DNA of 64,000 nt from Mycobacterium sp. Root265 (GTDB lineage: Bacteria; Actinomycetota; Actinomycetes; Mycobacteriales; Mycobacteriaceae): NCBI RefSeq assembly GCF_001428895.1, contig NZ_LMJA01000001.1, positions 435,150-499,149 on the forward strand. Direction: 5' to 3'. The translations under genes were made by a program, and so were the position numbers. Within the stretch, counting starts at the first letter, position 1; the number at the start of each line of letters is the position of its first letter. The notes beneath the pieces are model-generated. The model saw nothing but the letters and a program-made list of their open reading frames with translations. It was not told the DNA's origin and searched no databases. Shown here in pieces: positions 228 to 12,108 of this stretch.

Positions 228-1490
228 TCAGCCGGACCGCAACGCGACACCGCGGATGACGGTATCGCGGGAGTGGGTGAGCGCCCGGTCGGTGCCGAGC
301 TCACGCAGAATGTTCTCCGGAATCCACTGCACACCGATGACACCGCGGGCCAGCACTTCGGCGTTGGGGCTGTCCACCCGGATCTCCCCGGAGCGGATGC
401 CCTCGGAGAGCATCGTCTTCATCTGCCGTACCCGAGTCGAGAACGACCAGCCGGGATCGGCGACATCGGGAGGAGACTGCCGCATCCAGGCCAGCTGGAT
501 GCGGAACTCGTCCGGAAACTGTTCCAGGGCATTGATATTGAGCCAGCTCAGCGCGTCCAGCTTCTCCAACGGGGTGGACTCCGACCGCAGGACTTCACTC
601 CAACCGCCGCCGACCTTGTGGCCGAAGGCCACCATGATCGACATCAGCAGCTCGTCTTTCGATCCGATGATCCGATACACGGTGCCGGTGCCCATCCCGG
701 CGGCCGAGGCGATATCGCGGATGGTCGTCATTTCATAACCGCGCCGGCCGAACTCACTTCGGGCAACGGACCGGACGTGGGCAGCCTTGTCACTTTCTCC
801 GGATTCGGTGTTCTCCGACCAACTCTTCACCACCTCGTCGGCGGCGGCGAACGCAGCCGAACGGTCCAGCTGAACGTCGGTGAGGTCATGGCTGGCCAGT
901 CCATGGAGATGGATGCGGCACAGCAGGCTCGCCACCTGATCGCTGCTGCCCTTGTGCCGGATCACGTCCAGCCCGACATGCAGCATGCTTTGGCAGATCC
1001 GGTCGGCCAGCGTCGGCAGGTCCATCTCGGGCCTGAGATAACCGCTCCACCGACCGGCCCGCAGCAACTGCAGCATCGCGGATTGGATGCCGGCCGGGCG
1101 GCGCTTCGTGAGTTCCATCAGTTCGGGATCCGAGCTCGGGCCCTCGTAGAACGACATCTGCAGCGCCGCCCGGTGTGCCACTGCGCACCGGGCGATGGCA
1201 CATCCGAGGCCGATGATCTGGTCCTCGATCGGACGCGGGTCCGGGGCGTCGAGTCCGCTGAGCGCCTGCTCGCCGACCAGGTCCAGCGCCGCGTGATAGC
1301 GCCGGGTCAGCTCGACCAGGATGGCTTCCTTGGATTCGAAGTGGTGGTACAGACTGCCCGCGAGAATGCCGGCCGCATCGGCAATCTGCTGCAGTGAGGT
1401 GCGCAGGCCCGATTCGGCGATCACGTCATTGGCGGTCTGCAGAATCTGGATCCGACGCGTATCGGGAGCCTCTGATGGATGGTCGGTCAT
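228..1490 (-). CDS. TetR regulator with two TetR units in one chain
   Basis: The protein has 420 residues, about twice the usual TetR length. A first TetR N-terminal helix-turn-helix lies at about residues 33-52 (ending GSLYHHF). It is followed by a ligand-domain-like helical stretch, then a second full HTH at about residues 254-274 (ending GTVYRII) and a second effector-like domain. A single chain would therefore carry two DNA-binding heads. The ATG has an AGGAG-like Shine-Dalgarno sequence 5 nt upstream. It lies 78 bp downstream of the acyl-CoA dehydrogenase/SDR operon on the same strand. It is the nearest candidate regulator for the shared operator at 4832 and 6589; that link is inference from position only. 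Confidence 0.85.
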   Translation of the reverse strand: MTDHPSEAPDTRRIQILQTANDVIAESGLRTSLQQIADAAGILAGSLYHHFESKEAILVELTRRYHAALDLVGEQALSGLDAPDPRPIEDQIIGLGCAIARCAVAHRAALQMSFYEGPSSDPELMELTKRRPAGIQSAMLQLLRAGRWSGYLRPEMDLPTLADRICQSMLHVGLDVIRHKGSSDQVASLLCRIHLHGLASHDLTDVQLDRSAAFAAADEVVKSWSENTESGESDKAAHVRSVARSEFGRRGYEMTTIRDIASAAGMGTGTVYRIIGSKDELLMSIMVAFGHKVGGGWSEVLRSESTPLEKLDALSWLNINALEQFPDEFRIQLAWMRQSPPDVADPGWSFSTRVRQMKTMLSEGIRSGEIRVDSPNAEVLARGVIGVQWIPENILRELGTDRALTHSRDTVIRGVALRSG

Positions 1491-1568: not shown

Positions 1569-2513
1569 TCATCCCAGCGCGGTGACGCCTAACCGTTCGC
1601 ACATGGCGAACACCTCATCGAAGATCGACCCGGGCACGGTGAACCGCTCGGTGGACGACATCTCGGGCAGGTGGGCGGCGATGTCCTCGGCCCGTGGGAC
1701 GGTGCCGGCCGGTGCGCTCCAGCCTTCGGCAAGGCCGATGAAGACCCGCGCGAAGTGCCCGGTACCCGCCGAGTAGTTCTGGTGGGACACCTCGCACGTG
1801 CGGCTGGCGAGATAGGTGACGATCGGCACGACGAGTGCCGGATCGATCAGTTTGAGGAAGCCGGTCTCTTCGAGGGCTGTCTCGTTACCGAGGGTCTCGG
1901 TCACCATCCGCGAGAAACCAAACGGCAGAACCGCATTCGCCTTGATACCGTGTTCGGCGCCCTCCAGCGCGATGACGTTGGTCAGGCCCACAAGTCCGGT
2001 CTTGGCGGCGGCGTAGTGGGATTCCCACGGCTGGCCGAACATTCCCGCCGAGGACGAGATGAAGACGAATCGTCCGTACCCCTGCTGCTTCATCGCCCGA
2101 TAGGCAGGCTGGGCCAGGTAGAAACCACCGTCGAGGTGGACCTGCAGCATGGTGCGCCAGTCCGATTCGGACAGTTCGTCGAACGCAATGCTGCTGAACA
2201 CCCCGGCATTGCTCACCACCGCGTCGATGCGACCGAACTCCTCGATCGCGGTCGCGACGATGGCGGTTCCGCCTGCCGCGGAGGCCACCGAGTCGTGGGA
2301 GGCAACCGCCGTGCCACCGGCCGCTCGGATCTCGGCCACCACCTCGTCGGCAACACCCGGATCAGATCCGTCCCCGTGCATGGAGCCGCCGAGATCATTG
2401 ACCACCACGGCCGCACCTCGTGCGGCCAGATCGAGGGCGTACAACCGGCCCAGTCCTCGGCCGGCACCGGTGACGATGGCCACCTGGCCGGTGAAATCGA
2501 TCGTGTCGTTCAT
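1569..2513 (-). CDS. SDR-family oxidoreductase (3-hydroxyacyl-CoA dehydrogenase-like)
   Basis: This 314-residue short-chain dehydrogenase has the cofactor motif TGAGRGLG at 15-22, SNAG at 101-104 in place of NNAG, a serine cluster near 153-155 and the active-site YAAAK at 167-171. The NDLGG after the second strand resembles the dehydrogenase part of 17-beta-HSD type 4/MFE-2, which oxidises 3-hydroxyacyl-CoA. Its ATG overlaps the stop of the upstream acyl-CoA dehydrogenase by 4 nt (ATGA), so the three genes are translationally coupled. It likely performs a beta-oxidation step on the product of the two dehydrogenases. The substrate is unknown. Confidence 0.85.
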   Translation of the reverse strand: MNDTIDFTGQVAIVTGAGRGLGRLYALDLAARGAAVVVNDLGGSMHGDGSDPGVADEVVAEIRAAGGTAVASHDSVASAAGGTAIVATAIEEFGRIDAVVSNAGVFSSIAFDELSESDWRTMLQVHLDGGFYLAQPAYRAMKQQGYGRFVFISSSAGMFGQPWESHYAAAKTGLVGLTNVIALEGAEHGIKANAVLPFGFSRMVTETLGNETALEETGFLKLIDPALVVPIVTYLASRTCEVSHQNYSAGTGHFARVFIGLAEGWSAPAGTVPRAEDIAAHLPEMSSTERFTVPGSIFDEVFAMCERLGVTALG

Positions 2514-3616
2514 CGAACTCTGTCCCTTCCCGCCCGGCAGCCGACCACCAGTGCGGCGCCCAGCTGTTCCACATAGTCGTCGCTGCCACCCAGAAACGTC
2601 GAGAACCCCAGCAGCCGCCTCAGATACAGGTGAGCATCGTGTTCCCAGGTGTAGCCGATGCCGCCGAACACCGGGATGGCGGTGTCGCCGACGGTGGCCA
2701 GCCTGGCACCGAATGCCTTGATCCTGGCGGACGCGAGCGGTCGTTCCGCACTGTCGGCGTCATCGGCGGCCCAGAGCGCGCGCAGCACTCCACCGCGCCC
2801 GAGTTCGACGGTCTGGAACATGCTCACGCAGAGCTGCTGAACGGCCTGGAAGCTGCCGATGGGTTGACCGAATTGCCTGCGACTCTTGGCATGGTCGATC
2901 GTCAGGTCGAGCAATCGTTGCGCGGCGCCCAGCGCGTCGGCAGCGGCCAACGCCAGCACGTCATCGCGTAGCGAGGTGATCGCCTCGTCCCCGGCCCGAC
3001 CCAGCACGCGCGCCGACACGTCATCGAGCCGCGCCCGGAAGACCTTGCGGGTGCGGTCGACACCGGTCACCTCGGTGATCTCGAGGTCGGCGGTGGACAC
3101 CGAGTGCAGTGCCCAGCCGGCGTGATCACGGATCGGGATCAGTGCGATGTCGGCGGCCGTTGCATCGGCGAGTCGGTCGATCTCACCGCGCAGCAGCACC
3201 TCCGAGCCGTCGTCGGAGCTTTCGGGTCCATGGCCGCGCAGCGGTCCCACCGTCGCCACGACCGATCCCTCGGCGATACCGGCCAGCAGTACCGCGGCCT
3301 GCGCTTCGAGTCCGAATCGAAAGAGAGCGCGAGAGGCGGCAGCGCAGGACAACCAGGGCCCCGGGTTGACCGCAGCACCGAGCGCTTCGGCGACGATACC
3401 GGCGTCCACCATCGTCGCCCCGGATCCGCCGTACTCGGGTGCCACCAGCAGACCTGTTGCGCCGAGGGCGGCGAGTCCGTGCCACACCGGGTCGGTGGTT
3501 CCACGCGGGTCGTCGAGAAGGACACGGACGTGCTCGGTGACACCGGCTTTCTCGGCGAGGAATGCCCGGACGGTGTCCGCCAGCGCACGCTGTTCGGTGC
3601 TGTACTCGAGGTTCAT
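2510..3616 (-). CDS. Acyl-CoA dehydrogenase, second subunit-type
   Basis: This is a 368-residue acyl-CoA dehydrogenase homologue. The reading frame is open further upstream, but the ATG at 3616 overlaps the stop of the preceding gene (ATGA) and gives the standard N-terminus MNLEYSTEQ. SRRQFGQPIGSFQ and the C-terminal FGGIGYTWEHDAHLYLRR are characteristic of the mycobacterial FadE subunits that pair with another FadE. The C-terminal Glu of the classic YEGT motif is absent (TFLGGSDDY region). Together with the adjacent larger FadE this suggests an alpha2beta2 enzyme such as the steroid-side-chain dehydrogenases. That is inference from family knowledge; the substrate is unknown. Confidence 0.85.
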   Translation of the reverse strand: MNLEYSTEQRALADTVRAFLAEKAGVTEHVRVLLDDPRGTTDPVWHGLAALGATGLLVAPEYGGSGATMVDAGIVAEALGAAVNPGPWLSCAAASRALFRFGLEAQAAVLLAGIAEGSVVATVGPLRGHGPESSDDGSEVLLRGEIDRLADATAADIALIPIRDHAGWALHSVSTADLEITEVTGVDRTRKVFRARLDDVSARVLGRAGDEAITSLRDDVLALAAADALGAAQRLLDLTIDHAKSRRQFGQPIGSFQAVQQLCVSMFQTVELGRGGVLRALWAADDADSAERPLASARIKAFGARLATVGDTAIPVFGGIGYTWEHDAHLYLRRLLGFSTFLGGSDDYVEQLGAALVVGCRAGRDRVR

Positions 3617-4794
3617 CGGCGCGGCAGTCCGAGTAGCCGAGCGGTGATGCTGGTGTTGATCTGGGTGGTACCGCCGGCGATGCTCAATGCACGCGAGGTG
3701 AGTCTGTGCTCGGCCCATCGACCATCGGCACCGGCGTCCCCCAGCAGCTCATAGCCCAGCGCGGCCATGTCCTGCCCGATCTCCGCCCACACCGATTTGG
3801 CCAGGCTCGCGGTGCCGAAACCGTCTTTACCGTGTGCGGTGGCCGAGATCGAACGCTGGCAGAGCGTCTCGAGATAGCTGATCCGCATCTCCAATTCGCC
3901 GAGCCTGCGCAGCGTCGACGGGTCGTCGAGCGGGTGGCCCGCGTCATCCAGGTCGGTGACCAGATCGGCGAGTCGGGTCTGCATCTCGGCGTACAGTCTT
4001 GCCGCCCCAACACGTTCGTGGGACAGCGTGGTGGTCGCGACCTGCCAGCCCTCGTTCAGCGCGCCGAGCAGCGCGCTCGCCGGTACCCGGACATCGGTGA
4101 AGAAGATTTCCGCGAAGTCGGCGTCACCATTGAGGGTGACCAGGGGGCGCACCTCAACCCCGGGCAACGAGAGGTCGACGATCAGACAGGAGATGCCCTG
4201 GTGCTTCGGTGCGTCAGGGTCGGTGCGGACGTACAGCTGGCACCAGTCGGCGCGGTGGCCGAGTGAGGTCCATATCTTCTGACCGTTGATGACGAAGTCT
4301 CCGCCGTCGGCGACGGCGCGGGTACGCAGGGAGGCCAGATCCGAACCCGCTTCCGGTTCGGACATGCCCTGGCACCAGATGTCGTCGGCGCGCAGCATGC
4401 GGGGAAGCAGGTCGAGCTTCTGTTGCTCGGATCCGTAGTGCATGAGTGCCGGTGCGATGTTGTTGATACCGATCACGTTGAGCGGGTGCGGCACTCGCGC
4501 CCAGGTGGTTTCCTCGGCGTACACCAACTGTTCGATGATGCCCGCGCCGCGGCCACCGTAGTCGGCGGGCCATGAGACGGCCGCCCAGCGCGCATCCGCC
4601 ATCTGGGCATTCCACCGTCGCATGGTGCGGAAGGCGTCCTCGTCGCGACCGTAACGCTGGGCCGCGGAGAGGATCTCGGGTGTCAGGTGCTCGGCCAGCC
4701 ACGCCCGCAGTTCCTTGCGGAACTGCTCGGTGTGTGGCGGGTAGGTGAAACCGAAGGATTCCAAGGGGCCTACTTCATATCGAACATTCGTCAT
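3613..4794 (-). CDS. Acyl-CoA dehydrogenase, first subunit-type
   Basis: This 393-residue FAD enzyme introduces an alpha,beta double bond into an acyl-CoA. The substrate/FAD motif CQGMSEPEAGSDLAS lies at 141-155, followed by GQKIWTS at 171-177. The C-terminus IAGGTTQIN has Gly where short-chain enzymes carry the catalytic Glu. E260 in SHERVG lies where long-chain and isovaleryl-CoA dehydrogenases place theirs (inference). It is the first gene of the minus-strand operon. An upstream TTGACC-N17-TAGAGT promoter (4822-4850) contains the 16-bp element shared with the divergent and downstream operons. It probably forms a heteromer with the next gene. Confidence 0.88.
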   Translation of the reverse strand: MTNVRYEVGPLESFGFTYPPHTEQFRKELRAWLAEHLTPEILSAAQRYGRDEDAFRTMRRWNAQMADARWAAVSWPADYGGRGAGIIEQLVYAEETTWARVPHPLNVIGINNIAPALMHYGSEQQKLDLLPRMLRADDIWCQGMSEPEAGSDLASLRTRAVADGGDFVINGQKIWTSLGHRADWCQLYVRTDPDAPKHQGISCLIVDLSLPGVEVRPLVTLNGDADFAEIFFTDVRVPASALLGALNEGWQVATTTLSHERVGAARLYAEMQTRLADLVTDLDDAGHPLDDPSTLRRLGELEMRISYLETLCQRSISATAHGKDGFGTASLAKSVWAEIGQDMAALGYELLGDAGADGRWAEHRLTSRALSIAGGTTQINTSITARLLGLPRR

Positions 4795-4802
4795 GTCGAA
4801 CG

Positions 4803-4831
4803 TTGACTCGCTGTGGGCCGAACTCTACGGT
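4803..4831 (+). promoter_or_regulatory. Promoter of the VWA gene
   Basis: TTGACT (4803-4808), a 17-bp spacer and TACGGT (4826-4831) fit a mycobacterial SigA promoter pointing at the VWA gene. The predicted start near 4838 falls inside the 16-bp element at 4832-4847. It overlaps the opposing promoter of the acyl-CoA dehydrogenase operon. Confidence 0.5.
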
Positions 4832-4850
4832 GGAACAGATATTTGGTCAA
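4822..4850 (-). promoter_or_regulatory. Promoter of the acyl-CoA dehydrogenase operon
   Basis: On the minus strand, TTGACC (4850-4845), 17 bp and TAGAGT (4827-4822) form a good SigA-type promoter. Its predicted start, near 4815, gives a short leader before the ATG at 4794. The spacer holds most of the 16-bp element ACCAAATATCTGTTCC. Confidence 0.6.
4832..4847. promoter_or_regulatory. Putative operator, copy 1 (ACCAAATATCTGTTCC on minus)
   Basis: This 16-bp element matches the one at 6589-6604 in 15 of 16 positions. It lies between the -35 and -10 of the minus-strand promoter and on the start point of the plus-strand promoter, so a bound repressor would block both. It has only weak internal symmetry (AATA-TC-TGTT). 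The regulator is not known; the double TetR at 228-1490 is the nearest candidate. Confidence 0.55.
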
Positions 4851-4889
4851 CGTTCTGGGTCCAGGCATGAAATCGAGGTGCACAGCACG

Positions 4890-6566
4890 GTGACAACCGA
4901 CGACGATGCGCCCGACGTGCAGGTCCACGCCCTGCTCGCCTCCGCGCTGGCCGGACGGACCGTGGCGGTGCGGTCCGTCCCGGCCGGGGAACCCGCCTGG
5001 ACCGACGGCGTCGCGGTGTACCTGGACGCCGCGGCCGATACCGCGTTTCAGCGCCGCTGCCTGGCCGTTCAGGCATCGCTGCTGGCCGCCGACAGTCTGG
5101 ACCCCGCCATCCTGTGCACGCTCGGTCGACGCAGCGCCCTGGCGCAGCGCTACCTCGCGATCGAAGGGCACCGCGCCCTGGCCTGCAACGAGGAGCTGCT
5201 GTCGCGGGACATCCGCGCCCTGCTGGATCCCGCGCTCGCGGCCGGCACGGATTCGGCGCAGGCATCGCTGGACCTGGCCCTGAGCCGGGTGCACCTGCCC
5301 GAGGCGCCCGCGGCCTTCGGAATCCTTCGGCCACGCAGGATGGCCACCGGCTCGAACGACCCGGACCGGCCCGGCCGTCACATTGCCCGCAGGAAGCACG
5401 ACAACGAGTTGCACGAGCTCGTCGAGGACGCGGTCGACGATGCCGACCTGGACGTGCTGGACAACCTCACCAGCCCGGTCGGTGGCGGTGGCTCGATCGG
5501 GAAACTTCTGCAGCGCATGATGAAAAGCGTGCGGCGTCGGGGCAGCGGCGGTGGCCCGCCCGGGGCGGATTCGGCCACCCGCCGGTCCCGCTCGGGTGCC
5601 AGGGGAGCGGCCGCCGTGCTGTCCACCACCGTCGGTCCGTCGTATGACGACGATCCCGGGGGCACGGTGGGCGCAACGTACCCCGAATGGGATGCCAATC
5701 AGCGCCGCTATCGCGAGAACTGGTGCACGGTCGACGAAGTCGAGGTGCCGGCGCGTGACGTCACGCCGGCACCGCGTCCTGATGTCCATGCGTTGCGCCG
5801 ACCGCTGACCCGGCTGGGCGTCGGGCTCGACCGCTGCCGGCGCGAGGCCCAGGGCGACGATATCGATATCGATGCCGCCGTGCGTACCAGGATCGACACG
5901 CTGGCCGGAACTGCCGGTGACGCCGCCGTCTACATCGAGAGCCAGCGACGCAGAAGAGATCTCGCGGTGCTGGTGCTGCTCGATGTGTCCGGGTCGGTCA
6001 ACGAGCCCGGGACGGCCGGGCGCACCGTGCACGAGCAGCAGGTGCTCGCTGCGCACGCGTTGACGGTGGCACTGCACGAACTCGGCGACCGGGTGGCGCT
6101 GTACGGGTTTCGGTCCCAGGGCCGCTCGTCGGTACACGTGCTGCCCGTCAAACGTTTCGAGGACAACTTCGACAGCGCCGTCGCGCAGCGGTTGGCCGCC
6201 CTGACACCCGGTGCGTACTCCCGCCTGGGCGCGGCCATCCGGCACGGCACCGCGCTGATGGCGGAGAAGGCCGGGACCTCCCGGCGGTTGCTCGTCGTAC
6301 TGTCCGACGGACTGGCCTATGACCACGGCTACGAACGCGCCTACGGTGCGGCCGATGCCCGGCGCGCCCTGGCCGAAGTGCGCCAACAGGGCACCGGCGC
6401 CGTCTGCCTGACGGTCGGGGCGGGTACCGGGGCGCACGAACTACGACGGGTGTTCGGCAGCGCCGCGCATGCGGCTATTCCACGCCCCGAGCAACTCGGC
6501 GACATCATCGGCCCGCTGTTCCGGTCCGCGCTGCGGTCGGCCGACCTTCGCAGGCGCGTCGCCTGA
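4890..6566 (+). CDS. VWA-domain protein of the CbbO/NorD/CobT type
   Basis: This 558-residue protein has a C-terminal von Willebrand A domain. The MIDAS motif DVSGS starts at about residue 365, and later come a serine-containing loop (GAYSRLG) and LSDG. The N-terminal 350 residues are helical and charged, as in NorD and CbbO. These proteins act with a MoxR-class AAA+ ATPase to remodel or insert metal into a target enzyme. The AAA+ partner is the next gene, 76 bp away. The frame opens at 4803, but GTG 4890, with GAGGTG about 10 nt upstream, is the preferred start; GTG 4878 is the alternative. The target enzyme is unknown and may be encoded in this island. Confidence 0.8.
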   Translation: MTTDDDAPDVQVHALLASALAGRTVAVRSVPAGEPAWTDGVAVYLDAAADTAFQRRCLAVQASLLAADSLDPAILCTLGRRSALAQRYLAIEGHRALACNEELLSRDIRALLDPALAAGTDSAQASLDLALSRVHLPEAPAAFGILRPRRMATGSNDPDRPGRHIARRKHDNELHELVEDAVDDADLDVLDNLTSPVGGGGSIGKLLQRMMKSVRRRGSGGGPPGADSATRRSRSGARGAAAVLSTTVGPSYDDDPGGTVGATYPEWDANQRRYRENWCTVDEVEVPARDVTPAPRPDVHALRRPLTRLGVGLDRCRREAQGDDIDIDAAVRTRIDTLAGTAGDAAVYIESQRRRRDLAVLVLLDVSGSVNEPGTAGRTVHEQQVLAAHALTVALHELGDRVALYGFRSQGRSSVHVLPVKRFEDNFDSAVAQRLAALTPGAYSRLGAAIRHGTALMAEKAGTSRRLLVVLSDGLAYDHGYERAYGAADARRALAEVRQQGTGAVCLTVGAGTGAHELRRVFGSAAHAAIPRPEQLGDIIGPLFRSALRSADLRRRVA

Positions 6567-6583
6567 CGACTCTGACCACATGC

Positions 6584-6613
6584 TTGAACCAAACATCTGT
6601 TCCGCGCTACAGT
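6584..6613 (+). promoter_or_regulatory. Promoter of the AAA/AveC/P450 operon
   Basis: TTGAAC (6584-6589), 18 bp and TACAGT (6608-6613) form a SigA-like promoter in the short gap after the VWA gene. The spacer contains the second copy of the 16-bp element. The long operon can thus be transcribed separately from the VWA gene but under the same control. Confidence 0.55.
6589..6604 (+). promoter_or_regulatory. Putative operator, copy 2 (ACCAAACATCTGTTCC)
   Basis: It differs at one position from the copy at 4832-4847 and has the same placement relative to -35 and -10. Here the inner half is a short inverted repeat (AACA-TC-TGTT). Conservation of both sequence and promoter position argues for a genuine binding site. 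Confidence 0.55.
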
Positions 6614-6642
6614 GATCGAACTTGGTTGCACGAGAGGACGAT

Positions 6643-7461
6643 ATGCATCCGGCTCAGCCGAGAACCACCACGCAACCCCGCCCGTACTACATATCGGTCG
6701 CCGACGAGGAGCTGGTCTTCAAAGCCGCCTACCGACAAGGGCTCTCCGTGGTCCTCAAGGGCCCGACCGGGTGCGGGAAGACACGATTCGTCGAGGCGAT
6801 GGCGCACGACCTGGGGCGGCCGCTGATCACCGTGTCCTGTCACGACGATCTGACCACCGCCGACCTGGTGGGCCGCTTTCTGCTGCGCGAGGGAGAGACC
6901 GAGTGGGTCGACGGACCGCTGACCCGCGCCGTCCGGGAGGGCGCGATCTGCTATCTGGACGAGGTCGTGGAGGCGCGCCAGGACACCACTGTGGTGCTGC
7001 ACCCGCTGGCCGACCACCGTCGCGAACTCCCGATCGACCGGCTGGGCATCACGCTCGACGCCGCCGCGGGCTTCTGCCTGGTGGTGTCCTACAACCCTGG
7101 CTACCAGAGTGTGCTCAAGGATCTCAAGGACTCGACCCGGCAACGCATGGTCGCCATCGAGTTCGGTTTTCCGGCACCCGATGTCGAGGAGAAGATCCTG
7201 TCCCAGGAATCCGGGGTCGACCACCGCCGCGCTGCCGATCTGGTGCGCCTCGGGCAGGCGATCCGGCGCCTGGAGACCGGCGGCCTGCGCGAGGTCGCGT
7301 CCACCCGGGTGCTCATCGCGGCGGGTCGGCTCATCGCCGAGGGGCTGACACCCCAGGTCGCTGCTCGCGCGGCGATCGCCGGTCCGCTCACCGATGACTC
7401 GACGGTGACACGAGGCCTGATCGAACTGATCGACGTATACCTTCCCGCGGACGGAGAATGA
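6643..7461 (+). CDS. MoxR-class AAA+ ATPase, CbbQ/NirQ/NorQ-like
   Basis: The 272-residue ATPase has Walker A GPTGCGKT at 40-47, Walker B ICYLDE at 102-107 and sensor 1 SYNPG at 149-153. Its length and the STRQRMV segment are typical of CbbQ/NorQ. ATG 6643 has GAGAGG 5 nt upstream; an in-frame TTG 21 nt earlier is less likely. CbbQ-type rings work with a VWA adaptor to activate a client enzyme such as Rubisco or NO reductase, and neither is encoded here. The gene overlaps the next by 4 nt, so the client may be the binding-protein homologue, the membrane protein or the P450 of the same operon (inference). Confidence 0.88.
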   Translation: MHPAQPRTTTQPRPYYISVADEELVFKAAYRQGLSVVLKGPTGCGKTRFVEAMAHDLGRPLITVSCHDDLTTADLVGRFLLREGETEWVDGPLTRAVREGAICYLDEVVEARQDTTVVLHPLADHRRELPIDRLGITLDAAAGFCLVVSYNPGYQSVLKDLKDSTRQRMVAIEFGFPAPDVEEKILSQESGVDHRRAADLVRLGQAIRRLETGGLREVASTRVLIAAGRLIAEGLTPQVAARAAIAGPLTDDSTVTRGLIELIDVYLPADGE

Positions 7462-8576
7462 GCATGGGCTACGAGAGTTCGGCCGAACCGATCAAGGTCG
7501 GCTATCTGATGGATTTCACCCTGCCGGAAGCCTATCCGCAGGAGATGAGGGACGACTTCTTCCAGCCGTTTCAGCTGCTGTTCGACGAGGCACTGGCCGA
7601 CGGCCGCATCGATCGCAAGATCGAGCTGGTCTACCGCGAGGTCGAGGGTCTGCCGAAGGGTGCGGTGAAAAAGGTCATCGACGCCTACGGTGAACTCGTC
7701 GACGAGGGGTGCCTCGCGGTGTTCGGCCCGCACATCACCGACAACGCGGTGCCCACCCGGGAGGCCATCGAAGAACGGTTCCGGGTACCCGCGCTGAGTG
7801 TCACCGGCAGCGACGACTGGCTGGGCGAGTGGACGTTCGCCTTCCCGCAGGGCTCACTCACCGACGAGCCCATCTTCTGGGCCGATCTGCTGGCCAAGGC
7901 CGGCCACACCGAGGTGGGGGTGCTCATCGAGTCCTCCCTTGTCGGAGAGACCTACCTGCGACATTTTCGCAGCGCCTGCCGGCGCAGGAACATCAGGATC
8001 GTGGCCGAGGCGACGATCGCGCAGACCGCCCAGAACGTGAACGAGGCCGTCGCCATCGTCCATCAGGCCAAGCCGAGCGCCCTGGTGCACTGCGGATTCG
8101 GCTTCGGCATCGTCTTCCTCAATGCGGTGCTCGCGGAGTTGGGCTGGGACCCGCCACGTTTCACCAGCACGGCGTTTCAGAACGCCTGGGTCAATCCGGT
8201 GATGTGGGAGGCCTTCATGGGCTGGACCGGTGTCGACCAGTACGACGAATCCAACCAGGTGGGCCAGCGATTCCTGGACCGCTACGAAAAAGCGTTCGGC
8301 CGCCGCCCCGAGTATTGCGTCCCGGTGGTGAACCACGATGTCGCCAACGCACTGCTGCACGCCGTCACCGACGCCCACCCCTTGAGTCCGCGAGGCGTCA
8401 AAGACGCACTGGAGCGGGTGAAGATGCTGCCCGCCGCCGCCGGTGCACCGGGAACCCGCGTCTCATTCGGCAACTGGACCCGGCGGGCCTGGATGGGCGC
8501 CGGGTACCTCGTCGCCCGCACCTTGGACGCCGACGGTGTGAACTCCCATCTCGTCGACCGCTTCGGGGAGGCCTGA
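7458..8576 (+). CDS. Leu/Ile/Val-binding-protein-fold protein without signal peptide
   Basis: The protein has 372 residues and the type I periplasmic-binding fold (Peripla_BP_6). Visible features are IKVGYLMDFTLP near the N-terminus, CLAVFGPHITDNA, the VGVLIESS strand and the C-terminal VSFGNWTRR. The N-terminus MSMGYESSAEP carries no signal sequence or lipobox, so the protein should stay in the cytoplasm. There are no ABC permease or ATPase genes beside it. The start overlaps the AAA+ gene (ATGA). Cytosolic members of this fold can be ligand sensors, as AmiC is in the amidase system. Here a ligand-sensing or substrate-delivery role for the AAA+/P450 island is inferred, not shown. Confidence 0.8.
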   Translation: MSMGYESSAEPIKVGYLMDFTLPEAYPQEMRDDFFQPFQLLFDEALADGRIDRKIELVYREVEGLPKGAVKKVIDAYGELVDEGCLAVFGPHITDNAVPTREAIEERFRVPALSVTGSDDWLGEWTFAFPQGSLTDEPIFWADLLAKAGHTEVGVLIESSLVGETYLRHFRSACRRRNIRIVAEATIAQTAQNVNEAVAIVHQAKPSALVHCGFGFGIVFLNAVLAELGWDPPRFTSTAFQNAWVNPVMWEAFMGWTGVDQYDESNQVGQRFLDRYEKAFGRRPEYCVPVVNHDVANALLHAVTDAHPLSPRGVKDALERVKMLPAAAGAPGTRVSFGNWTRRAWMGAGYLVARTLDADGVNSHLVDRFGEA

Positions 8577-8577
8577 G

Positions 8578-9705
8578 ATGAGTACCGATCACATCGCACC
8601 GAGCACCGAGACACCGCCGCCCGCCACCCGCCGCTCTCCCTGGGGCACGGTGTGGATCGTCGCCGGGCTGCTGGGTATCGCGGTGATCGCGTATCACGCG
8701 CAGAGCGGCCCGACGTCGCCGCGGATCGCCAATCCGGACGTCGAGGGAAGACCACGTCCCGTCGACTTCCTGTTCGGTTTCGAGCACTGGATCGACCTGT
8801 GGCAGATCTTCACCATCTTCTCGGTGCCGGCGCTGTTGATCGCCTGCATCATCGCCTGGCGGCGCAATCCCGGCAGCCCCATCGTCATGATGGCCGCCAT
8901 CACCACCCTGATCGTGTGGCAGGACCCGTACATGAACTGGGCCCCGTACGCGGTGTACAACCCCGAACTGTGGCACTGGCCGCCTGACTGGCCGTGGGTT
9001 TCGCTGTCGCCGACCATCGAGCCCTTCGTCGTCATCGGCTATGTCATGTTCCAGTTCGGGCCGTACTTCCCGGCGGTCTGGATCCTGCGAAAGATCCAGT
9101 CGCGCAAGCCCGTCACCGCCTTCGCCTGGCGGCACCCCCTGGTCAGCCTGGGCGTCCTGATCTTCGTCATCGGGTTCCTGTTCGACATGGTGCTCGAACT
9201 CACCCTGGTGCGCACCGGTCTCTACATCTACTCGCAGGTCATCCCGTTCGGCTCCATCTTCACCGGCAGCACCTTCCAGTTCCCGCTGCTGTGGGAATCG
9301 GTGATGGTGACGTTCGTGATGGTGCCGGCCGGCCTGCTCGTCTACCGCGACGACACCGGTCGGACGGTCGCCGAGAAGCTCGCGCAACGCTCGCGGCTGT
9401 TCCTCAACCGGCCCATGCTGGGCATGTTGGTGGTGATGTTCGTGATCATCAACGTCGCCTACTTCGCCTACGGGCTGGGTTTCACCTTGATCAGGATGTC
9501 CGGCGCGGCCACCTCGGTGGCCTGCCCGTGGCCGTATCCGGAAGCGAAAGTATATGACCCGCAGGGTTATTACGAGGAGAACGGCGCTCAGGGACCTTTC
9601 GCGGTGGGCATCATGTCCACCTGGATGACCGGCCAGCCCGACGGCAGACCAGCGGTCGTGCCGGGTTCCCGCGGTGACCGGTGCGCACCGGAGTCGGCCC
9701 GATGA
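8578..9705 (+). CDS. AveC-like (spirocyclase-family) integral membrane protein 1
   Basis: The protein has 375 residues with about seven hydrophobic segments (about 23-42, 75-94, 100-114, 147-170, 186-208, 236-256, 279-303). Two conserved loops stand out: a Trp/Pro/Tyr-rich loop at 114-140 containing DPYMNWAPY, and a segment at 214-236 that includes YSQVIPFGSIF and ends QFP. Both recur at matching spacing in the protein at 46144-46932. I recognise the family as that of Streptomyces AveC, which acts on the spiroketal part of avermectin; mycobacterial members have no established function. It starts 1 nt after the preceding stop (GGGGAGG upstream) and overlaps the next SDR by 4 nt. Confidence 0.7.
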   Translation: MSTDHIAPSTETPPPATRRSPWGTVWIVAGLLGIAVIAYHAQSGPTSPRIANPDVEGRPRPVDFLFGFEHWIDLWQIFTIFSVPALLIACIIAWRRNPGSPIVMMAAITTLIVWQDPYMNWAPYAVYNPELWHWPPDWPWVSLSPTIEPFVVIGYVMFQFGPYFPAVWILRKIQSRKPVTAFAWRHPLVSLGVLIFVIGFLFDMVLELTLVRTGLYIYSQVIPFGSIFTGSTFQFPLLWESVMVTFVMVPAGLLVYRDDTGRTVAEKLAQRSRLFLNRPMLGMLVVMFVIINVAYFAYGLGFTLIRMSGAATSVACPWPYPEAKVYDPQGYYEENGAQGPFAVGIMSTWMTGQPDGRPAVVPGSRGDRCAPESAR

Positions 9706-10634
9706 GTGAGCCGCGAAGTGTCGTGATCACCGGCGCGTCCAGGGGGCTCGGGCTGGCATCGGCCGTGCACCTGTACCGGGCGGGATGGCAGGTTGTCGCC
9801 GCCATGCGGTCCCCGGACACCGGGATGCCGCGACTGCGCGAAGCCACCGGTGCCGCCGAAGGGGATCCGAGGCTGATCGGCGTGCCACTCGACCTCGTCG
9901 ACGAAGCCTCCGTGACCGCGGCGGCCGCGCTGATCGAGGCCGCCGTCGGCGCGCCGTACGCTATCGTCAACAACGCAGGCATATCCGCCGCAGGCATGGT
10001 CGAAGAAACCCCGATGGAGCTGTGGGAGAGGATGTTCAGCACCCACGTGCTGGGCCCGGTGCTGCTGACCAAGACCTTGCTGCCGTCGATGCGGGCGGCC
10101 GGACGGGGCCGGATCATCCTGATCTCGAGCCAGGGTGGCGTGCGCGGAATGCCCTCCATCGCGGCCTATTCGGCGGCCAAGGGGGCGCTGGAGCGCTGGG
10201 GCGAATCGATGGCCGGGGAGGTCGCACCGTTCGGTATCGGCGTGACCATCCTGGTGACCGGCACCTATGACACCGACATCATCACCGATGCCGGCACCAC
10301 CGACTGCCGGGATTTCGACGGCCCCTACGCGCGGCACCACGCGACCATCGACCGGCGCGGCCGGCTCGCCATGAAACTTGCCCGCCCGCCGGAGATCTTC
10401 GCTGCGGGCCTGGCAGGCGCCCTGGAGGGCACTGCTGCCTTTGTGCGGCGCCCCATCGGTCCGGACGCCCGGATGCTGCTGATAGCCAATCGGATTCTGC
10501 CCAGTGCCGGCGTGCATCACATGGCACGGCTGGCCATGGGTCTGCCAGGCCTGGGCGCCATGCGGTTCGCGCCCGCGCCGCCGCCCCCGCCCGCCGAAAC
10601 ACCTGCCGAGGAAGATGTGCGCGCACATGGTTGA
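9702..10634 (+). CDS. SDR-family oxidoreductase
   Basis: This 310-residue short-chain dehydrogenase has TGASRGLG at 10-17, NNAG near 92-95, a serine pair in LISSQGG and the active-site YSAAK. The start ATG at 9702 overlaps the stop of the AveC-like gene (ATGA); an earlier in-frame ATG at 9681 would lie inside that gene. The last 30 residues form a Pro/Ala-rich tail (PAPPPPPAE), which is unusual for an SDR. The coding end overlaps the start of the aldehyde dehydrogenase by 8 nt. It probably interconverts an alcohol and a ketone or aldehyde of the island's substrate. Confidence 0.85.
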   Translation: MSEPRSVVITGASRGLGLASAVHLYRAGWQVVAAMRSPDTGMPRLREATGAAEGDPRLIGVPLDLVDEASVTAAAALIEAAVGAPYAIVNNAGISAAGMVEETPMELWERMFSTHVLGPVLLTKTLLPSMRAAGRGRIILISSQGGVRGMPSIAAYSAAKGALERWGESMAGEVAPFGIGVTILVTGTYDTDIITDAGTTDCRDFDGPYARHHATIDRRGRLAMKLARPPEIFAAGLAGALEGTAAFVRRPIGPDARMLLIANRILPSAGVHHMARLAMGLPGLGAMRFAPAPPPPPAETPAEEDVRAHG

Positions 10635-12108
10635 CACCACCGTCCGGCACGAAACCAGGATGCTGATCGACGGCAAGCTCGTCGAGGGCGGAGCGGGCGC
10701 ATTCGTCAATGTGAACCCGGCCACCGAGGAGGTGATCGGTGAGGTCACCGACGCGTCGACGGCCGACATGCGCCGCGCCATCGACGCCGCCCGGCGGGCC
10801 TTCGATGATACCGACTGGTCGACCGACCACGTTCTGCGGCAACGGTGTCTGCTCCAGCTGCAGGAGGCGCTGGAAGCCGAGCGCGAGGAACTGCGCGAGG
10901 AACTGATCGCCGAGGTCGGTTGCCCGCGCTCGCTCACCTTCGGTCCGCAACTGGACGCGCCACTCAGCGATGCGCTCACCTACCCGGCCAAGCTCATCGA
11001 CGAATACCCGTGGGAAACCTCGCTGGGTGACGCATTGGTGTCGGTCACCGGGGTGAACACCACCCGCAAGGTCTGGCGCGAACCGGTGGGGGTGGTGGGC
11101 GCGATCGTGCCGTGGAATTTCCCGTTCGAGGTCACCATTCAAAAGCTCGGGCAGGCACTGGCCACCGGGAACACCGTGATCCTCAAGCCCGCCCCGAACA
11201 CGCCGTTCAACGCGACCCGCATCGGTCGGTTGATCGCCGAGCACACCGACATCCCGGCCGGTGTCGTCAACATCGTGACGGCCTCGGATCATCTTGTCGG
11301 CGAGGAGTTGACGCTCTCACCCAAGGTGGACCTGATCTCCTTCACCGGGTCCACCACGGTCGGTATGCGCATCATGGAAAAGGGTGCGGCCACCATGAAG
11401 CGGCTGTTCCTCGAACTCGGGGGCAAGTCGGCCACCATCGTGCTGGAGGATGCCGATTTCGCACTGGGTTGCATGATGGGCATCGCACCCTGCGTGCACG
11501 CCGGCCAGGGTTGTGCGAACCCGACCCGGCTGCTGCTGCCGCGCTCGCGCTACGACGAGGGCATCGAGATTCTCAAGGGCATCTATGCAGGGGTGCAACC
11601 CGGTGATCCGCAGGATGCCGCAACGCTGTGTGGTCCGGTGATCTCCGATCGGCAACGTGCCCGCATCCGCGGCTATATCGAGCAGGGTGTGGCCGACGGG
11701 GCACGCCTGGTGGTCGGTGGCTCCGAGCAGCCCGACGGCTTGGACAAAGGATTCTTCGTCAAGCCAACGCTTTTCGCCGATGTCGACAACTCGATGACGA
11801 TCGCGCAGGAAGAGATCTTCGGACCTGTGCTCTCGGTGATCGCCTACGAGGACGAGGACGATGCGGTACGCATCGCCAACGACAGCCCGTATGGGTTGGC
11901 AGGCAACATCATGTCCGGATCGCTGGATCACGCACTGGCGGTGGCCAAGCGGCTGCGCGCTGGGTTCATCGGGATCAACGGCACCGCGGGGTACGGAGCG
12001 GACACCCCGTTCGGCGGCTACAAGAACAGCGGGGTCGGCCGGCAGAACGGCACAGCCGGCTTCGATCAGTACACCGAGATCAAATCCATCGCCTACCCGG
12101 CCCAGTGA
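10627..12108 (+). CDS. Aldehyde dehydrogenase
   Basis: The 493-residue enzyme belongs to the NAD(P)+-dependent ALDH superfamily. It shows PWNFPFEVTIQKLGQAL, the catalytic-Glu segment LELGGKS and the nucleophilic Cys in GQGCANPTR. The EEIFGPVLSV stretch is the usual C-terminal signature. ATG 10627 gives the normal N-terminus (MVDTTVRHETRM). ATG 10615 is an alternative, with GAGGAAG directly in front of it. In the operon it would oxidise an aldehyde produced by the SDR or P450 to an acid. It is followed after 48 bp by the P450. Confidence 0.9.
   Translation: MVDTTVRHETRMLIDGKLVEGGAGAFVNVNPATEEVIGEVTDASTADMRRAIDAARRAFDDTDWSTDHVLRQRCLLQLQEALEAEREELREELIAEVGCPRSLTFGPQLDAPLSDALTYPAKLIDEYPWETSLGDALVSVTGVNTTRKVWREPVGVVGAIVPWNFPFEVTIQKLGQALATGNTVILKPAPNTPFNATRIGRLIAEHTDIPAGVVNIVTASDHLVGEELTLSPKVDLISFTGSTTVGMRIMEKGAATMKRLFLELGGKSATIVLEDADFALGCMMGIAPCVHAGQGCANPTRLLLPRSRYDEGIEILKGIYAGVQPGDPQDAATLCGPVISDRQRARIRGYIEQGVADGARLVVGGSEQPDGLDKGFFVKPTLFADVDNSMTIAQEEIFGPVLSVIAYEDEDDAVRIANDSPYGLAGNIMSGSLDHALAVAKRLRAGFIGINGTAGYGADTPFGGYKNSGVGRQNGTAGFDQYTEIKSIAYPAQ

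Follow-up and report, generated by a model that had tools for sequence, protein, structure and literature searches.

A conserved asymmetric 16-bp promoter element as the putative operator of a double-TetR repressor in a mycobacterial gene island

Two nearly identical 16-bp words lie in the promoters of a gene island of Mycobacterium sp. Root265, which raises the question of whether they are the binding site of a shared regulator and, if so, of which one. Within the window (the whole stretch of 64,000 nucleotides that was analysed), the island is ordered as FadE-FadE-SDR-regulator on the left, and as VWA followed by AAA-PBP-AveC-SDR-ALDH-P450 on the right (Table 1). It is highly probable that the element is the asymmetric operator of the repressor encoded at 228-1490, a protein with two TetR domains in a single chain, which is proposed to block the promoters listed in Table 1. 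Because the element is kept almost unchanged in relatives together with the gene of this double repressor, the protein very probably uses it as the switch that shuts the island off.

Table 1. Features of the gene island, numbered from the first letter of the window; promoter boxes and operators are predictions.
Feature	Position	Strand	Basis or remark
Double TetR regulator, 420 aa, proposed element binder	228-1490	-	PF00440, 2 stretches, 8.4e-26
SDR oxidoreductase, FadE row	1569-2513	-	family search
Acyl-CoA dehydrogenase	2510-3718	-	family search; ORF as listed, true start probably internal
Acyl-CoA dehydrogenase, first of FadE row	3613-4794	-	family search
-35 TTGACT, VWA gene	4803-4808	+	TTGAC at 17 bp in 54/65 orthologous sites
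-10 TAGAGT, acyl-CoA dehydrogenase (FadE) operon	4822-4827	-	N17 from -35; TAnnnT at 63/65
-10 TACGGT, VWA gene	4826-4831	+	N17 from -35; TAnnnT at 64/65
Element copy 1, candidate operator, ACCAAATATCTGTTCC	4832-4847	-	FadE promoter spacer and VWA promoter start region
-35 TTGACC, acyl-CoA dehydrogenase (FadE) operon	4845-4850	-	TTGACC at 64/65 class-D sites
VWA (CoxE-like) protein	4890-6566	+	family search
-35 TTGAAC, AAA-to-P450 operon	6584-6589	+	sequence reading
Element copy 2, candidate operator, ACCAAACATCTGTTCC	6588-6603	+	spacer of AAA-operon promoter
-10 TACAGT, AAA-to-P450 operon	6608-6613	+	N18 from -35
AAA ATPase with CbbQ_C domain	6643-7461	+	family search
Periplasmic-binding-protein-like, PBP (Peripla_BP_6)	7458-8576	+	family search
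AveC-like protein	8578-9705	+	family search
SDR oxidoreductase, right row	9681-10634	+	family search
Aldehyde dehydrogenase (ALDH)	10504-12108	+	named by reading its translation
Cytochrome P450	12157-13380	+	family search

The regulator gene is the last of the FadE row and lies 78 bp behind the SDR gene. Two gene starts probably differ from the listed ones: the listed VWA frame begins at 4803, inside the predicted promoter, and GTG 4890 (or 4878) is the likelier start, while for AAA the ATG at 6643, which stands behind GAGAGGA, is likelier than the listed TTG at 6622. The PBP gene overlaps the AAA gene and is without an element of its own there. As to the substrates of the encoded enzymes, the best PDB match of the P450 is an entry named CYP125MRCA (1.1e-67) and one of the acyl-CoA dehydrogenases (2510-3718) matches the IpdE2 model, far under the model cut-off; these matches give a faint hint of sterol-like or terpenoid compounds.

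The first-pass annotation had described two 16-bp copies with a one-base difference, and both are present, differing by T/C at position 7 of the 16-mer. Copy 1 lies where it had been placed (4832-4847, minus strand), while copy 2, given as 6589-6604, actually occupies 6588-6603. The flanks of the two copies, compared by eye, appear unrelated except for the promoter boxes. The element is not palindromic: the consensus equals its own complement at 6/16 positions, and its halves, ACCAAA and the complement of TGTTCC, are unlike and separated by about one helical turn. At up to 3 mismatches the window holds 2 matches vs 0.22 expected, a number also reached in 3/100 shuffles. A scan of the organism's own genome (6.67 Mb) at up to 2 mismatches returned just copies 1 and 2, each with 0 mismatches, which bears out the earlier expectation that the motif is not scattered at random; the total was 38 matches, 36 of them with 3 mismatches, compared with 10 for the reversed-pattern control. 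A looser scan (2 mismatches to ACCWAAYATYTGTTC) gave nine matches in the genome and two for the reversed control, and seven of the nine fall inside long GC3-rich reading frames, the other two being uncovered by one.

Both copies are embedded in predicted promoters, and the hexamers TTGACC-N17-TAGAGT and TTGAAC-N18-TACAGT are as previously described. The VWA gene has a promoter of its own, whose -35 TTGAC lies one base further in 10/65 orthologs and two bases further in 1/65. The opposed -10 boxes of FadE and VWA overlap in ACTCTACGGT at 4822-4831 with the TA at 4826-4827 in common, and both boxes are retained in orthologs. The divergent VWA gap is thus predicted to be a two-way promoter with opposed -10 elements, with starts expected at ~4815 (minus strand) for FadE and ~4838 (plus strand) for VWA, that is, 23 bp apart. 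For bidirectional promoters, PMC12825309 gives 18 as the most common distance between starts, 10 and 23 being also common. Copy 1 begins directly behind the VWA -10 and spans the expected start at ~4838, in agreement with the earlier claim that it covers the predicted VWA promoter start. Under a loose rule without chance control, a promoter of the form TTG...TAnnnT points toward AAA at 56/57 class-A sites and one points toward PBP at 58/60 sites. The element fills the spacer at the FadE and AAA promoters and lies behind the -10 at those of VWA and PBP; in the aligned sites, the TGTTC half reads as the one closer to the -10 at all four promoter positions.

The decisive evidence that the element is real is its conservation, as judged from sequence comparison of orthologous loci. 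These were the best 80 of 407 named loci with the regulator as query, a set thus chosen for carrying the regulator, and the closest named relatives among them by regulator protein are M. frederiksbergense (94%), M. aurum (91%) and M. bacteremicum (90%). The relaxed form ACCWAAYATYTGTTCM with up to 2 mismatches occurs at 282 sites in 75/80 loci (118 perfect, 72 with one mismatch and 92 with two); across the 80 loci the reversed pattern yielded 1 site and twelve shuffles 0-4. The conservation in orthologous upstream regions proposed in the first-pass annotation was found in three gaps. The element is kept in 63/64 divergent VWA gaps, in 57/65 VWA-AAA gaps (missing in 8) and in 60/64 AAA-PBP gaps (missing in 4). 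L086, scored as an empty divergent gap, actually holds a perfect site and was scored so because VWA matches there just in pieces, which escape the sorting rule. The AAA-PBP site is absent from the window, M. frederiksbergense, M. bacteremicum, L089 and L113, the AAA and PBP genes abutting in the first two of these relatives. The information content of the site columns is 1.90, 1.84 and 1.87 bits for the three gap classes (1.90 in the divergent gap), and that of the farther upstream flanks 0.14-0.27 bits overall (0.20-0.27 for the divergent-gap site), with partly conserved downstream columns reaching up to 1.56 bits adjoining the site, at the promoter boxes. Since the sites were picked by pattern match, it is the gap counts and the controls, and not these column scores, that carry the argument. 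In all, the three promoter classes provide 182 natural copies of the site, which represent 27 distinct words.

The link between element and regulator was assessed in 148 genomes of the same genus, with the element defined as up to 1 mismatch to ACCAAAYATCTGTTCC and the regulator as a match at E <= 1e-90. The element is present in 95/148 genomes (the reversed pattern in 1/148) and the regulator in 92/148; 89 genomes have both, 3 the regulator only, 6 the element only and 50 neither. The Fisher p of 7e-29 for this co-occurrence ignores kinship and overstates independence, because all 148 genomes belong to one genus. Having both is not always being linked: in at least three genomes the listed places do not adjoin, those of G001 and G107 (drafts) being on different contigs and those of G159 0.48 Mb apart. 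The regulator locus of G001 has no strict-form element at up to 3 mismatches, just a weak variant beside the regulator (L070:1489, differing from the relaxed form at 2 positions). Among the regulator-only genomes, G043 and G115 contain ACCAAATATTCGTTCC in the divergent gap and match the relaxed form perfectly in the AAA-PBP gap, and G069 has a variant site directly before the regulator. Among the element-only genomes, cluster genes adjoin the sites of G005 (84% complete), whereas in the remaining five a single match was found and cluster genes were absent, from the surrounding 3-kb stretches in G003, G048 and G057 and also from 20-kb stretches in G053 and G114, except for a 35% P450 in G053.

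The AAA gene (E <= 1e-80) is found in 102 genomes, including 88/92 with the regulator, and since it co-occurs almost as tightly, these genome counts by themselves do not tell the regulator from a target. Fourteen genomes have an AAA match and no double TetR, and 12 of them are without the element; the other two are G005 and G114, and the match in G114 does not adjoin the cluster. AAA copies without an adjoining double TetR served as a better, local control, and in stretches of ~20 kb the element was found at 0/4 of them. These copies are L166 (C12 of the own genome; searched at up to 4 mismatches) and L167, L168 and L169 (up to 3 mismatches), which come from other genomes (G044, G021 C13 and G160 C16). 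At 1e-90 no double TetR is found in G044, and its AAA copy is instead adjoined by an ORF resembling, by our reading, a single TetR (L167:13884-14504). The G160 copy (L169) has a mere VWA fragment, and L170, a copy beside a double TetR in the same genome, has the element. The control locus L166 (G000:C12:360000-379900) is a paralogous AAA-VWA-AveC-like module (65%, 37% and 26%) free of the element, and a strong TetR_N match, a 281-aa frame, lies there ~1.3 kb from the AAA gene.

The regulator belongs to the TetR family by its TetR-type HTH. Both TetR_N stretches lie in one frame, and the regulator matches listed from the 148 genomes are without an internal stop. The halves fall in different TetR subgroups, the first matching KstR2 and the second others, e.g., 3him over 229-293. 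In a PDB sequence search the top match of the first domain is KstR2 (7e-13), with Mce3R at 4.2e-10; in a profile search the unnamed regulator 2ibd ranks above KstR2 and Mce3R is found at 2.5e-12. Among 48 aligned proteins, conservation is 0.944 and 0.951 in the HTH regions vs 0.793 in the rest. PMC11667970 calls double-TetR proteins infrequent and gives an older prediction of 204 in Actinomycetes. In the own genome TetR_N matches number at least 150, which were scored among 324 candidates. Among those 150, the nearest others on the contig lie at 406 kb, ~29 kb from the regulator on its left, and at 491 kb, ~50 kb beyond the second site on its right. Searching plasmids with the regulator gave 13 records, 0 of which cover 80%. 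Another frame of the own genome, 441 aa long (G000:C5:43788-44654, L155; 27% identity to the regulator), is also double-TetR-like, and no element lies in 12 kb there, the best word having 4 mismatches.

From this arrangement we infer the following mechanism. Bound in the spacer, the repressor would close the promoters of both operons, FadE-FadE-SDR-regulator and AAA-PBP-AveC-SDR-ALDH-P450. Because copy 1 covers the VWA start and the TA of the -10 is common to both promoters, its occupancy by one repressor would silence the FadE and VWA directions together. The regulator sits in the FadE gene row and would therefore limit itself if the FadE promoter drives its transcription. Release of the repressor would come from an inducer, which may be an acyl-CoA or a sterol/terpenoid-like intermediate. 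The element, with its unlike halves about one helical turn apart, fits a protein that carries two different HTHs in one chain. HTH1 is the proposed reader of the ACCAAA half, because it carries GSLYHHF as in KstR2 and the KstR2 half-site AnCAAG resembles ACCAAA. The proposal of the first-pass annotation that a shared repressor serves three transcription units thus gains support from conservation and co-occurrence, repression itself being deduced, and its candidate regulator 228-1490 is the best supported one, by co-occurrence and by the AAA copies that lack both double TetR and element. The annotation did not mention that this candidate is a double TetR, to which a non-palindromic element is suited, that its gene closes the FadE row, or that copy 1 sits on a two-way promoter.

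Other explanations have to be weighed against this reading. The element might instead serve a different regulator, encoded at another place in the genome, with the double TetR as a mere neighbour. The at least 150 TetR_N matches in the genome, the listed element and regulator being unlinked in G001, G107 and G159, and the nearly equal co-occurrence of the AAA gene all fit this possibility. It is nevertheless unlikely in view of the co-occurrence of element and double TetR (89/3/6/50), the 0/4 AAA copies with an element when the double TetR does not adjoin, and the persistence of an element near the regulator, at ~2.6 kb in G136 and ~6 kb in G045, genomes that have no AAA match at 1e-80. Moreover, weaker sites lie less than 300 bp before the regulator gene in 25/80 loci and also near several regulator paralogs. 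The four double-TetR-less AAA copies likewise disfavour a regulation tied to the AAA-VWA genes instead of to the double TetR. A pairing of two like 16-mers by chance or local duplication, to which the 3/100 window shuffles with 2 matches at up to 3 mismatches could point, is of practically negligible probability; the copy flanks look unrelated by eye, and the recurrence in 75/80 loci and in the named gaps refutes a chance pair.

It is also conceivable that the element is conserved as a part of the promoter, through contacts with sigma or RNA polymerase, as almost all sites at the four promoter positions touch the -35 or the -10. However, it lies between the boxes at FadE and AAA and behind the -10 at VWA and PBP, and this shifting place relative to the boxes speaks against conservation of a promoter core. 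Besides, there are two copies in the whole genome, which must contain far more than two promoters, and spacers in promoters of the main sigma factor are not known to show such conservation. Such a role is accordingly highly improbable. Somewhat less remote, though still very unlikely, is that the protein bound at the element acts as an activator, at some or all promoters. Some TetR-family proteins do activate, FasR being one by its entry among the family models; but the element occupies the core promoter at four conserved positions, where a bound TetR is expected to block the polymerase, and Mce3R and KstR2 are described as repressors (PMC11667970 and PMC3068626).

The preferred reading, an operator of the double TetR, has its nearest described counterpart in Mce3R of M. 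tuberculosis (Rv1963c, PDB 9b7y). As given in PMC11667970, Mce3R is a double TetR with two domains in one chain of ~400 residues and a non-palindromic operator; it is autoregulated and governs lipid and cholesterol-type beta-oxidation enzymes. The regulator 228-1490 equally has two TetR domains per chain, and the element, as a predicted operator, is equally non-palindromic. The Mce3R operator, however, is reported as two 25-bp sites, 53 bp apart, whereas the window presents one 16-bp core per promoter. Instead of full-length similarity to Mce3R, the matches span roughly the initial hundred query residues and are weaker than those to KstR2, so the regulator is not a demonstrated Mce3R ortholog. 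By our reading of the profile alignment, Arg53 of Mce3R aligns with His49 of the regulator, and Arg257 and Lys262 (residues named in PMC11667970) would correspond to Arg273 and Lys278. The nine neighbours covered by the family search, to the right of the regulator, include no mce gene (mce3/yrbE3A). KstR2 resembles the present system in the GSLYHHF of HTH1 and in a half-site, AnCAA(G), that is similar to ACCAAA. In PMC3068626, though, it appears as a single TetR with a 14-bp palindromic motif, AnCAAGnnCTTGnT, in contrast to the double TetR and asymmetric element of the window, which do not show these marks of the KstR2 regulon. For the opposed promoters on one -10 region there is a parallel in PacrA/acrR of E. 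coli, which is repressed by the TetR-family AcrR (PMC12825309); in the window, by comparison, the promoter pair is a sequence prediction, the repressor a double TetR and the site asymmetric. A further paper deals with an asymmetric operator of a mycobacteriophage repressor (PMC1934351).

Repression by TetR-family and double-TetR proteins is therefore already known, and the element, as a predicted conserved operator, is ordinary in kind. Literature searches on double or tandem TetR proteins and asymmetric operators gave Mce3R as the sole relevant TetR case among the matches listed. A text search on the letters of the element found no report of the site, most subscription papers lying outside its reach, and searches combining mycobacter, AveC, P450, TetR and acyl-CoA dehydrogenase, or double TetR with mycobacter and CYP/AAA/VWA, yielded no paper and nothing related, respectively. 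With Mce3R as the sole double-TetR found with an operator description, the regulator 228-1490 would be the second, and one with a sharply defined site. The natural site variants and the regulator paralogs make the reading of an asymmetric site by a fused TetR directly testable, and as the predicted regulon consists of uncharacterised enzymes, the site offers a handle toward the inducer of the pathway. It is possible, although we would lean slightly against it, that an orientation-dependent asymmetric word is here read by a single-chain double TetR, with one copy shutting both directions, and that the fusion of two unlike half-repressors represents a general route to operators that no symmetric dimer reads.

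The orthologous loci contain several further arrangements. A variant site lies just downstream of the regulator in 29/80 loci (e.g., L127:11273 and L111:11255), and in these two it precedes an SDR-like gene, a possible further regulon member in relatives. Intergenic pairs of variant sites (2 mismatches each) on opposite strands, 66-68 bp apart, are found at L079:13596-13678, L080:14780-14861 and L109:17836-17919 and recall the paired Mce3R sites. In G045 (L148) the regulator, ALDH and P450 are retained while AAA and VWA are reduced to remnants. The mycobacterial regulator (69%) and four perfect elements also occur on L130, a contig assigned to an Acidobacteria MAG, probably through a binning error. 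Finally, at L083:8736-8753 the site reads well on the opposite strand too (ACCAAATATCTGGTCC), giving a near-palindrome in this one locus.
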